Below, piece after piece: positions 5,676-34,430 of a DNA stretch of 36,037 bases. Origin of the DNA: Leptolyngbyaceae cyanobacterium SM1_4_3 (GTDB lineage Bacteria > Cyanobacteriota > Cyanobacteriia > Elainellales > Elainellaceae); assembly GCA_012031415.1 (NCBI GenBank), contig JAAUTN010000026.1, positions 1-36,037 of the forward strand. The letters are read 5' to 3'. Position 1 is the first letter of the stretch. The number at the start of each line of letters is the position of its first letter. The translations under genes were made by a program, and so were the position numbers. Under the pieces are notes generated by a model. The model was not told the DNA's origin. It made no database searches and saw nothing but the letters and a program-made list of their open reading frames with translations.

Positions 5676-6989
<1,314 letters not shown>

Positions 6990-7115
6990 TTAGTCACAGG
7001 CTTATCCTATAGCAGTTCCTTGTTCACTGAAGTACTGGCAGGTGATTTTTGTTAAACCTAAAAGTCTGCTTCAAAATGAAGGAGGTAAAACGTTAGAAAG
7101 AAACGGGAAAAACCG

Positions 7116-7550
7116 ATGCGATTACTCCACACCATGTTGCGGGTTGGCAATCTAGAAGAGTCCCTTAAGTTCTACTGCGATCTTCTGGGAATGAAACTGC
7201 TGCGGCAGAAGGACTATCCAGGCGGCAAGTTTACGCTGGCATTTGTGGGCTATGGCGAGGAATCGGATCATACGGTTTTAGAACTAACCTACAACTGGGA
7301 TACCGATCGCTATGATTTGGGCGATGCTTATGGACACATTGCGATCGGCGTGGATGACATCTACGCTACCTGTGAAAATATTAAGCAATTGGGCGGCAAG
7401 GTCGTCCGCGAACCCGGCCCGATGAAGCACGGCTCTACGGTGATTGCCTTTGTGGAAGACCCAAATGGCTACAAGGTTGAGCTAATTCAACTGGGAACGC
7501 AGGGAAATGCTTCTCAGCAGGAGTCAACGCCGCAGATGGCTTCTCGGTAG
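7116..7550 (+). CDS. gloA: Lactoylglutathione lyase (glyoxalase I)
   Basis: This enzyme converts the methylglyoxal-glutathione hemithioacetal to S-lactoylglutathione, detoxifying methylglyoxal in the cytoplasm. The 144-residue sequence has both vicinal-oxygen-chelate halves and all four metal ligands at canonical positions: H5, E56 (VLELTYNW), H74 (YGHIAIGV), and E122 (YKVELIQL). The length and the absence of the long insertions of the Zn-type enzymes fit the short bacterial Ni/Co-type form. The last 15 or so residues ([11 protein letters not shown]...) are a polar tail. The gene is single and is divergent from eno. Confidence 0.95.
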
Positions 7551-7785
7551 GTTGAGGAGGGGCGATCGCCCTAAATCAGCAAGTAAAAGCTGAAAATCAA
7601 CTTTGACAACTGATCTGCTGACAAGCAAAATCAAGCAAACTAGGCCTCTAACAAATTCAAATTGTTGAGGCTTTAATTTTTGCTGTGACTCACTGCACGT
7701 CCAAGAGCAACAATTGAATCAAGCCATAGCAAACAGTCCTACTCTAGAATGTATGAAACCTAAGTCTATTTAAGTTAAACAATTT

Positions 7786-31469: not shown

Positions 31470-31805
31470 GGTTGGCAACCTCCACGATTGATACTACCGT
31501 ACTGTAAAAATTAGACAACACGTTAATACAACCTACAGCTTTTTGAGCCTCTCGTGGGATGGGCATCTTGCCCGTCCAAATCAAGCAGGCAAGATGTCTG
31601 CTCCACAGGAAACTAGGGTTTTCTGGAATTCTAGTTGCACATCAATAGTTACTGTCACTGGTGCGGATCACAGCGATCGCCAAGATTCCGGGATTAAATG
31701 GAAATAGCTTAAATTTGTGAAGGGGTTTTGAATTGATTCAGGTTGCACTACTGAGTCAGCGGGCGATTTGGATGATAGCGATCGCCCAATTTACAGTAGG
31801 AAAGC
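31470..31805. other. Divergent intergenic region with a dispersed repeat
   Basis: This 336-base stretch between the Uma2 and cyclase starts holds a palindromic repeat copy (31554-31609) and AT-rich flanks that must contain both promoters. I see no other feature. Confidence 0.5.
31554..31609. repeat. Dispersed palindromic repeat copy (GGGCATCTTGCCC type)
   Basis: GTGGGATGGGCATCTTGCC is followed, after a short spacer, by its partly complementary GGCAAGATGTCTGCTCCAC. Same family as 14994-15026 and 24646-24735. Confidence 0.65.
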
Positions 31806-33866
31806 ATGACAAGACAACGATGGGGCCGCTACCTCAGACAACAGGGGACTGACCTCTGGCAGCGCTTAAAAACTCATCCACCTAGAGAATGGGTGCGGCA
31901 TCTGCAAGCCAGAAGTGCCGAACTTTGGCGATACGTTAGGGCAGACTATTCCGAAGATTGGGTTCATCGCTTCAGGAATCAGCGGGTTAAGGTCGTTGGC
32001 TATCTCAAGACAAACACACCAGACGACTGGCGTGGACATCTTAAGGTACAAAGTGTAGCTTTTCGTCAACATCTGGCGACCCATCCATCCTGGCTACCGG
32101 GGGCAGCGGCAGCGGCAGTTTCGCTGATTTTGTGGCAGATTGGCGTGTGGCAACCCTTAGAGCGGGTGGGTTACAACACACTGTTTAAAGTAAGGCGACT
32201 GTTGCCTCATGAAGGCTGGTCTTCAGAAATCGTGTTGATTGCGATTGACGATGAGAGCTTGAAGGAATACGGTTCGTTTCCCTGGTCACGCGATCGCTAT
32301 ACCCAACTTCTGCAAGCTTTAAAGGCATCTCCTCCAGCAGTCGTCGGCTTCAACATTTTGTTTGCCGAGCCAACGCCCGAAGACGCAGCACTGGCGCAAG
32401 CAATATCAGACAATGGCTCTGTCGTGCTGGCAGTCGGTTGGGATGTCTCAACCGAACCAGTGCCGCTAGTGCCAGAATTTGACCAGGTAGCGGAAACAGG
32501 CCACATTTACAATCCAGTTGAGCCAGACGGCATTACTCGGCAGGTGCCGCTTTACCTGCGGGGAACTTCAGCGGCAGGAACTTCGGCAACGTTTTCGGCT
32601 TTTGGGTTAGTGGTGGTTCGCACCTACAACGAGGGGAGCGATCGCCCCATTCCCCTAATTCAACCCTTACCGAAAGCCGAGGAGCAAAACGCCTGGGTAA
32701 ACTGGCCCGGTTCACGAGAAGACCTGCGCCCATCGACCTATTCTTTTATAGATGTGGTTGAGGGTAGAGTATCGCCCGAATTGTTGGCTGGCAAAATTGT
32801 TCTGGTTGGCCCGACTGCAACCGGACTCAGTTCACTACAAACGCCGTTTGACCAGAATCCGCCTGCCTCCAGTCTGCAACTCCATGCCGCCGTGATTGAT
32901 AACCTATTACAACAGCGGTTTTTGCAGCGATTGCCCTGGTTTGCAGAAGGATTGCTGATTGTCGGTGTGGGAGTGGGTTCTAGTTTAATTCTGGCTTCGC
33001 TGGGGTTTAAGCGGCGAACGGCAATGACGCTGCTCGTGCCGATTAGCTGGGTGGCGATCGCCACGCTCCTATTCACCAGTCAAAACCTATGGATTCCGAT
33101 TGCAGCCCCAGTAGGTTGCTTTTTGCTAGCAGGGGCGGGCATTCAAGTGCGCGACCAGCTTGAAAAGCAGCAAATCATGAGCCTGTTTGTGCGTCACGTT
33201 TCTCCCCAAACCGCTGCTCTAATTTGGCGCAACCGAGCCAGCATCTTTCAACACGGACAGCTTGAAGCTCAAGAACTGATGGCAACCGTGTTGTTTATGG
33301 ACATTCGCAACTTCACCACCATCTCTGAAAATATGTCGCCGCGTGAGGTGCTGAACTGGCTTAATCTCTACCTGGGCACCATGACCAACTGCATCCTCAA
33401 ATATGACGGCGTGGTAGACAAATACATTGGCGATGCAATCATGGCGGTATTTGGCATTCCGCTGCCGCATACGTTAGTGACAGAAATTCAGCAGGATGCG
33501 GTGAATGCAGTCACAGCGGCGATCGCCATGCAAGAGCAGCTTACCCGACTCAACCAAAGACTACAGCAGTCTGGCTTACCCACTATCCAGCATGGCATCG
33601 GCATTCACACAGGCATGGTTGTTGCAGGCAGCGTCGGCAGTCCCCAGCGGCTTAACTATTCCGTCATTGGTGACACTGTGAATATTGCGGCTCGACTAGA
33701 GCGGTTAAACAAAGAGCTTAAGTCCACCAAACCTCACACATTACTCGTCAGCAGCACCACATTTGATTATGTCCATCATCACTTTGCAGGTAGCCCCGTG
33801 CAAACCTTACAGCTTCGAGGTCGCCAGGAACCAACCATTGTCTATGAAATTACAAGTCAACTGTAA
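31806..33866 (+). CDS. CHASE2-domain adenylate cyclase with N-terminal 23-residue repeats
   Basis: This 686-residue class III cyclase makes cAMP and is built of three parts. Residues 6-97 are four tandem units of 23 residues (see the repeat feature). A membrane segment (about 98-118) leads to an extracytoplasmic CHASE2 sensor (about 120-375: IVLIAIDDESLKEYGSFPWSR, PAVVGFNILF). Two or three more membrane segments (about 378-445) precede the catalytic domain (about 490-680). The catalytic Asp pair is D499 in FMDIRNFTT and D543 in KYIGDAIMAVFG. K539 and the D623-T624 pair in VIGDTVNIAARLE point to ATP rather than GTP. CHASE2-cyclases are common in filamentous cyanobacteria. No cAMP receptor is adjacent. 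Confidence 0.93.
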   Translation: MTRQRWGRYLRQQGTDLWQRLKTHPPREWVRHLQARSAELWRYVRADYSEDWVHRFRNQRVKVVGYLKTNTPDDWRGHLKVQSVAFRQHLATHPSWLPGAAAAAVSLILWQIGVWQPLERVGYNTLFKVRRLLPHEGWSSEIVLIAIDDESLKEYGSFPWSRDRYTQLLQALKASPPAVVGFNILFAEPTPEDAALAQAISDNGSVVLAVGWDVSTEPVPLVPEFDQVAETGHIYNPVEPDGITRQVPLYLRGTSAAGTSATFSAFGLVVVRTYNEGSDRPIPLIQPLPKAEEQNAWVNWPGSREDLRPSTYSFIDVVEGRVSPELLAGKIVLVGPTATGLSSLQTPFDQNPPASSLQLHAAVIDNLLQQRFLQRLPWFAEGLLIVGVGVGSSLILASLGFKRRTAMTLLVPISWVAIATLLFTSQNLWIPIAAPVGCFLLAGAGIQVRDQLEKQQIMSLFVRHVSPQTAALIWRNRASIFQHGQLEAQELMATVLFMDIRNFTTISENMSPREVLNWLNLYLGTMTNCILKYDGVVDKYIGDAIMAVFGIPLPHTLVTEIQQDAVNAVTAAIAMQEQLTRLNQRLQQSGLPTIQHGIGIHTGMVVAGSVGSPQRLNYSVIGDTVNIAARLERLNKELKSTKPHTLLVSSTTFDYVHHHFAGSPVQTLQLRGRQEPTIVYEITSQL
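31821..32096 (+). repeat. Four-fold 23-residue repeat in the cyclase N-terminus
   Basis: Residues 6-97 split into units starting at W6, W29, W52 and W75. Each has Trp at position 1, a hydrophobic residue at 5, an aromatic or hydrophobic residue around 12-13, Leu/Val at 16, and the first three end in Pro/Ser plus acidic residues before the next Trp (PPRE, YSED, TPDD). The pattern predicts amphipathic helices on the cytoplasmic side of the first membrane segment. The DNA repeats have diverged, so this is an old protein repeat and not recent DNA slippage. Confidence 0.75.
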
Positions 33867-34109: not shown

Positions 34110-34430
34110 ATGGAAGACACATTTTATAGACTAGCCTGCCGAATTCGCTCTAGCGGAGGAATCGCCAGGAGTGCTGATTATCACGACCTCCAAACTGTTC
34201 AAAGTCAGGCAATGGCGCTGAACGCCGAGCGGGGTGAGGCTTGCGAATATTTTGTTGAGAGCGTGAAGCTGAGCGCTTTGCTGCCCTGGGAAGTCATGAG
34301 TTTAGCAGAGCGCAATTTAATCACTTTGGATCAGCTAGAGCGCTATTCAAACAAAAGTGATGATTATCGCTATGTCAGTAACATCAAGGAGTTGATTCAG
34401 AAAGGGCGAAGCAAGGTGCGCTCAGCTTGA
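34110..34430 (+). CDS. Small hypothetical protein
   Basis: I do not recognise this family. The 106-residue soluble protein is mostly helical and charged: a first part (EDTFYRLACRIRSSGGIARSADYHDL), a middle helix (VQSQAMALNAERGEACEYFVESVKLSALLPWEVMSLAERNLI), and a basic C-terminus (IKELIQKGRSKVRS). There is no signal peptide and no known motif. Normal codon use and HIP1-flanked context suggest a real gene; AAGGAAG lies about 17 bases upstream of the ATG, farther than usual. The 243 bases before it hold only short GTGTTGC/TAGTGC-like near-repeats. Confidence 0.6.
   Translation: MEDTFYRLACRIRSSGGIARSADYHDLQTVQSQAMALNAERGEACEYFVESVKLSALLPWEVMSLAERNLITLDQLERYSNKSDDYRYVSNIKELIQKGRSKVRSA

Follow-up and report, generated by a model that had tools for sequence, protein, structure and literature searches.

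A fourfold 23-residue tryptophan repeat ahead of the likely first membrane helix in CHASE2 adenylate cyclases of one cyanobacterial genus

The window analyzed here, a whole stretch of 36,037 nucleotides of DNA from Leptolyngbyaceae cyanobacterium SM1_4_3, contains a gene for a predicted CHASE2 adenylate cyclase that begins, before its likely first transmembrane helix, with four similar units of 23 residues. What is this repeat, from what did it arise, and what could it do so near the membrane? The reading that we favor, with a probability of roughly 0.6, is that it is a lineage-specific multiplication of a cytoplasmic arm that precedes the first transmembrane helix, giving a cationic, tryptophan-rich tail that probably rests against the inner face of the membrane.

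Results

The cyclase frame spans positions 31806..33866 of the plus strand, on which all coordinates below are given. Its 686-residue product matches Pfam Guanylate_cyc with an E value of 3.5e-23 and 82.6 bits (cut-off 21.9), and CHASE2 at residues 104 to 390 (32115..32975) with an E value of 1.5e-48 and 166 bits (cut-off 26.3). The adenylate/guanylate cyclase catalytic domain, placed by Pfam and by motifs at residues 493 to 677 (33282..33836), holds FMDIRNF (at residue 497), DKYIGD (538), and GDTVNIAAR (622), the residues of which presumably have their customary roles in class III catalysis. By domain content the product is a class III CHASE2 adenylate cyclase, its catalysis and substrate being predicted. 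A likely first transmembrane helix (TM1), at about residues 98 to 118 (32097..32159), was placed solely by its position before CHASE2, the stretch lying below the Kyte-Doolittle cut-off of 1.6, and hydropathy gives three further hydrophobic stretches within residues 378 to 446 (32937..33143). Since a single helix would precede CHASE2 and three hydrophobic stretches follow its core, both ends of the protein should be cytoplasmic. The likely ribosome-binding site, AGGAAAG (31798..31804), lies ahead of M1 and was judged by eye. Upstream of the gene are an M61 peptidase and, on the opposite strand, a Uma2 protein; downstream are a 106-residue ORF, an MptE-like protein, and a short-chain dehydrogenase, and in none of these neighbors did we see anything bearing on the repeat. 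The 106-residue ORF directly past the cyclase (34110-34430, plus strand) matches nothing in Pfam at 0.001.

Residues 6 to 97 (31821-32096) form four gapless units, which read in order WGRYLRQQGTDLWQRLKTHPPRE (unit 1, residues 6 to 28, 31821..31889), WVRHLQARSAELWRYVRADYSED (unit 2, residues 29 to 51, 31890..31958), WVHRFRNQRVKVVGYLKTNTPDD (unit 3, residues 52 to 74, 31959..32027), and WRGHLKVQSVAFRQHLATHPSWL (unit 4, residues 75 to 97, 32028..32096). The original prediction had described such a fourfold register, with tryptophans at residues 6, 29, 52, and 75 and acidic ends in the first three units, and the translated frame bears it out: the tryptophans stand exactly 23 residues apart, and units 1 to 3 end in RE, ED, and DD, while unit 4 closes with WL. 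At period 23 the BLOSUM62 scores of the four units sum to 168, compared with -125 ± 24 (SD) for shuffled sequences, and the highest score in 5,000 shuffles scanned over periods 10 to 25 was 63; a chance origin was rejected on this comparison, and the repeat is real. Since any two units share only 4 to 8 of 23 residues and 26 to 32 of 69 bases, the copying that produced them is old. Residues 1 to 97 contain 19 Lys/Arg, 8 Asp/Glu, and 7 Trp, and the net charge across residues 1 to 98 is +11.

The repeat had been thought to lack a named domain and to lie close to the membrane, and both expectations held. Within residues 1 to 100, Pfam returned only Ribosomal_S15 (E values of 0.068 to 0.72) and CMAS (E value of 0.06), both below their cut-offs; NCBIfam returned no match, and the best E value in a sequence comparison with the PDB was 1.4. 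Unit 4 directly precedes the likely TM1, itself placed by position.

That the repeat is an artefact of a wrongly chosen start was considered and rejected. Before TM1 the frame has just two start codons, M1 and the GTG of residue 30, so nearly all of unit 2 and all of units 3 and 4 are translated regardless of which is used. The region is under purifying selection: in comparisons with two relatives, dN/dS over codons 1 to 97 is 0.09 and 0.12, close to the values of 0.09 and 0.08 for codons 98 to 250. Constraint is strongest in unit 3, which has a dN of 0.000 and 0.019 and is nearly frozen within the genus, where 1 of its 23 columns varies, as against 7 in unit 1, 10 in unit 2, and 5 in unit 4. 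Unit 1 has a dN/dS of 1.08 in the comparison with L037 (Leptolyngbyaceae cyanobacterium RM1_406_9), a value resting on a dS of only 0.071, and in the relative from Cyanobacteria bacterium FACHB-471 (L038) the tryptophan of unit 2 is replaced by arginine. One could regard the extra units as a near-neutral spacer by which the tail grew longer without harm and without a new function, and both the greater variability of units 1 and 2 and the presence of the copies in one genus only would fit such an account. It is nevertheless improbable, given a dN/dS near that of the codons that follow and the strong constraint on unit 3. As a separate observation, unit 3, which would be a copied unit on the reading that we prefer, is better conserved within the genus than unit 4.

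The repeat is confined to one genus among the genomes searched. With a profile of residues 1 to 100, the full region was found in 3 of 388 genomes of the class, all three from the Leptolyngbyaceae-like genus of the source (the source itself, RM1_406_9, and FACHB-471), each with four units and with period-23 z scores of 8.5, 7.7, and 6.0. The 388 genomes are a sample of a larger group, and no more than 12 first-look candidates per genome were scored, so relatives may have been missed. The same profile gave three weak partial places outside the genus (E values of 0.0015 to 0.0075); two of them have a stop inside the match and the third falls within an open frame of 528 residues, and by eye, in the frames of those loci and with the matches not placed to the residue, no such repeat was seen. 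A search of 36 genomes of the order returned the three genus members and one weaker relative at an E value of 1e-100. Plasmids gave one poor match only (E value of 0.4), and viral contigs gave none.

The original prediction had also raised the prospect of a domain common to many CHASE2 cyclases and variable in copy number, and this part did not survive; the distribution over the 388 genomes led us to reject a widespread domain. Of 55 related frames, L080 gave no arm, and among the other 54 there were 31 with arms shorter than 40 residues that were left unscored. The source's genus differs here from the other cyanobacterial CHASE2 cyclases: none of the 51 related frames outside the genus (20 scored, 31 too short for two units) has the fourfold arm or even two units, and the best z score among those scored was 3.3, at period 21. 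Across the order, where CHASE2 matches sum to 285 in the search table, we examined 90 N termini besides that of the source (30 loci returned by the search and 60 chosen among the listed rows). More than 60 residues precede the CHASE2 match in 45 of the 90, often kinase or other parts, and many of these 45 were truncated where the retrieved sequence ended. No comparable repeat was found in those N termini with arms of about 40 residues or more, the best z score being 3.4 versus 8.1 for the source cyclase.

Outside the genus we find single arms. Related cyclases elsewhere in the cyanobacteria are 40 to 54% identical to the source protein and have one arm where unit 4 stands. Whole-protein searches matched at least 36 of the 388 class genomes at an E value of 1e-100 and at least 31 of 148 genomes of another order at 1e-150, in overlapping genome sets with at most 3 (class) or 7 (other order) candidates scored per genome, and none of the matches outside the genus begins before query residue 72. 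Counted from the first start through the end of the PLE motif, the distance is 119 residues in the source cyclase versus 51 in L042 and L044 and 50 in L045; the difference of 68 to 69 in these three relatives is that of three units of 23. In other relatives the distance runs from 34 upward, the motif search having taken the wrong place in a few rows, and some have earlier possible starts (in L084, up to 101 residues before PLE). Judged by eye, the arm of L045 (WMVHLKKTISVVQKYLASNPPWLTG) aligns to unit 4 without gaps, and the Trp/Leu strip described below is kept in L045 and L050. Unit 4 is the arm common to these single-arm relatives, and its place and its spacing before TM1 are those seen in L042, L044, and L045. 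One genome (G140) also has a second cyclase of this group, on contig 67 at 5956-7776, with one in-frame TAA; it is perhaps a decayed paralogue.

A common origin of the four units with the single arm is supported by a profile and a tree. An HMM of the single arm, built from six relatives, none of them of the genus, scores unit 4 at 19.1 bits, unit 3 at 10.2, unit 2 at 7.0, and unit 1 at 3.0, all in one register with the matches 23 residues apart, and strongly for units 4 and 3 only. Because the best of 2,000 shuffled 74-residue stretches reached 9.2 bits, units 1 and 2 prove nothing alone; jointly, units 1 to 3 score 14.1 bits, a value reached by none of 2,000 shuffles (best, 10.1). A second profile, of twelve arms including shorter ones, is weaker, giving 3.6 bits for units 1 to 3 jointly and 8.2 for unit 3 versus 8.3 for the best shuffle. 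In the reverse direction, when the 51 outside arms were scored with a profile of units 1 to 3 without unit 4, 18 exceeded the 95th percentile of shuffles, as against the 2.6 that 5% would give, although these arms are related to one another and the 18 are not independent hits. In a midpoint-rooted tree without an outgroup, built from residues 98 onward of 56 rows, the three four-unit proteins form one clade with support of 100/100, and this clade is grouped at 100/99 with five outside proteins, L039, L040, L041, L043, and L046. The arms of those five hardly resemble the unit, so it is among more distant relatives that the arms closest to unit 4 are found, and this is the weak point of the origin argument.

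This weak point is also what would favor deriving units 1 to 3 from a repeat of another protein, their likeness to the arm before TM1 being due to chance, and the scores of units 1 and 2, which singly fall below the best shuffle against the arm profile, would agree with that. We consider such a source very unlikely all the same: the register continues without a gap into unit 4, which, like unit 3, matches single arms, and in the three genus genomes no second copy of the repeat was found at an E value of 0.01 among the 12 of 34 to 53 candidates scored in each. Taken with the length arithmetic, the profile and tree make an origin of the repeat by copying of the arm before TM1 fairly well supported.

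Structure prediction was of little help, as AlphaFold runs on the full length and on residues 1 to 150, with three near-identical rows each, gave pLDDT values of 41.6 and 31.2, which are unusable. At that confidence unit 3 is mostly strand or coil, and Chou-Fasman values do not favor helix for it. On a helical wheel, positions 1, 12, 5, and 16 of the unit are contiguous and form one Trp/Leu strip. The amphipathicity of the units is modest: the hydrophobic moment gives p values of 0.037 and 0.026 for units 1 and 2 and of 0.11 and 0.18 for units 3 and 4, and the pooled moment at 100 degrees gives 0.039, 0.049, and 0.076 for 18, 20, and 23 positions, rising to 0.33 to 0.39 when the angle is left free. 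Within the genus, strip positions vary no less than the others (4 of 16 versus 19 of 76), with one Trp-to-Arg change among them.

These properties also bear on a different placement, in which the four units stand off the membrane and pack in the cytosol into a helical bundle or short solenoid, binding a partner protein or joining cyclase dimers. The original prediction had likewise suggested that the repeat could be a helical bundle, near the membrane, or a protein-binding platform. A narrow hydrophobic strip suits helix packing as well as it does membrane contact, the acidic ends of units 1 to 3 could cap helices, and an almost frozen unit 3 is what one would expect of a binding surface. However, no known family or solved chain matches residues 1 to 100 significantly by sequence, the models are unusable, and the lone copy beside TM1 in the single-arm relatives could not form a bundle by itself, so that we hold a bundle or solenoid to be a credible but minority possibility.

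Discussion

On the reading that we favor, multiplication of the cytoplasmic arm, unit 4 would be the inherited arm, and units 1 to 3 would be old copies that were inserted ahead of it in the ancestor of a single genus. Each of the four would most likely form one cationic helix of about 18 to 20 residues, with its Trp/Leu strip at positions 1, 5, 12, and 16, ended by a proline or by a turn of serine and acidic residues. The tail adjoins the membrane, and its positive charge and many tryptophans suggest that it touches the inner leaflet. It would probably lie along that leaflet next to TM1, near enough to reach the C-terminal cyclase, and there it would strengthen the hold on the membrane or, depending on a lipid or a partner, act as a brake on the output of cAMP. 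We infer the helicity, membrane contact, topology, and regulation of this tail from sequence. A more specific version is that a receptor-type cyclase acquired a new regulatory element by copying its own helix before the membrane step by step, and that the result works from the cytoplasmic face as a lever of four steps at the membrane surface, or as a lipid sensor, with copy number setting cyclase output; it is speculative and on balance doubtful.

Tandem amphipathic repeats of 11/22 residues, with proline-broken units of about 22 residues, occur in apolipoprotein A-I, perilipins, and synuclein. The present unit is like them in that the Trp/Leu pair at positions 1 and 5 appears again at 12 and 16, a spacing of 11, and unlike them in its period of 23, its occurrence in one genus, its attachment to a membrane enzyme, and its modest amphipathicity. 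The comparison concerns how such a tail might work, and no kinship is claimed. Cyclases also have a helical regulatory segment in the cyclase transducer element, which, like the signaling helix, stands between sensor and catalytic domain; the source repeat, in contrast, is N terminal and comes before TM1. The signaling helix is described as a helical regulatory segment of signaling proteins, cyclases included (PMC1592074).

Closer in overall design are CyaD1, CyaD2, and CyaK of Sinorhizobium, which, like the cyanobacterial relatives, have CHASE2, hydrophobic stretches, and a class III cyclase, a likeness drawn from descriptions of the S. meliloti proteins. The S. meliloti CHASE2 cyclases are reported to raise cAMP when the plant protein uL2 is sensed through NsrA (PMC13001267). 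In the titles and abstract openings of the open-licence literature searched, we found neither an N-terminal repeat of CHASE2 cyclases nor anything like a membrane lever or lipid sensor based on copy number in CHASE2 proteins.

If the repeat did arise by multiplication of the arm, it would be a clean case of a new protein region made from a short arm, one in which the likely parent copy, the single-copy relatives, and the outcome are all visible. It would also provide a natural comparison, one unit versus four, for asking whether the output of CHASE2 cyclases is under the control of their N-terminal arm.
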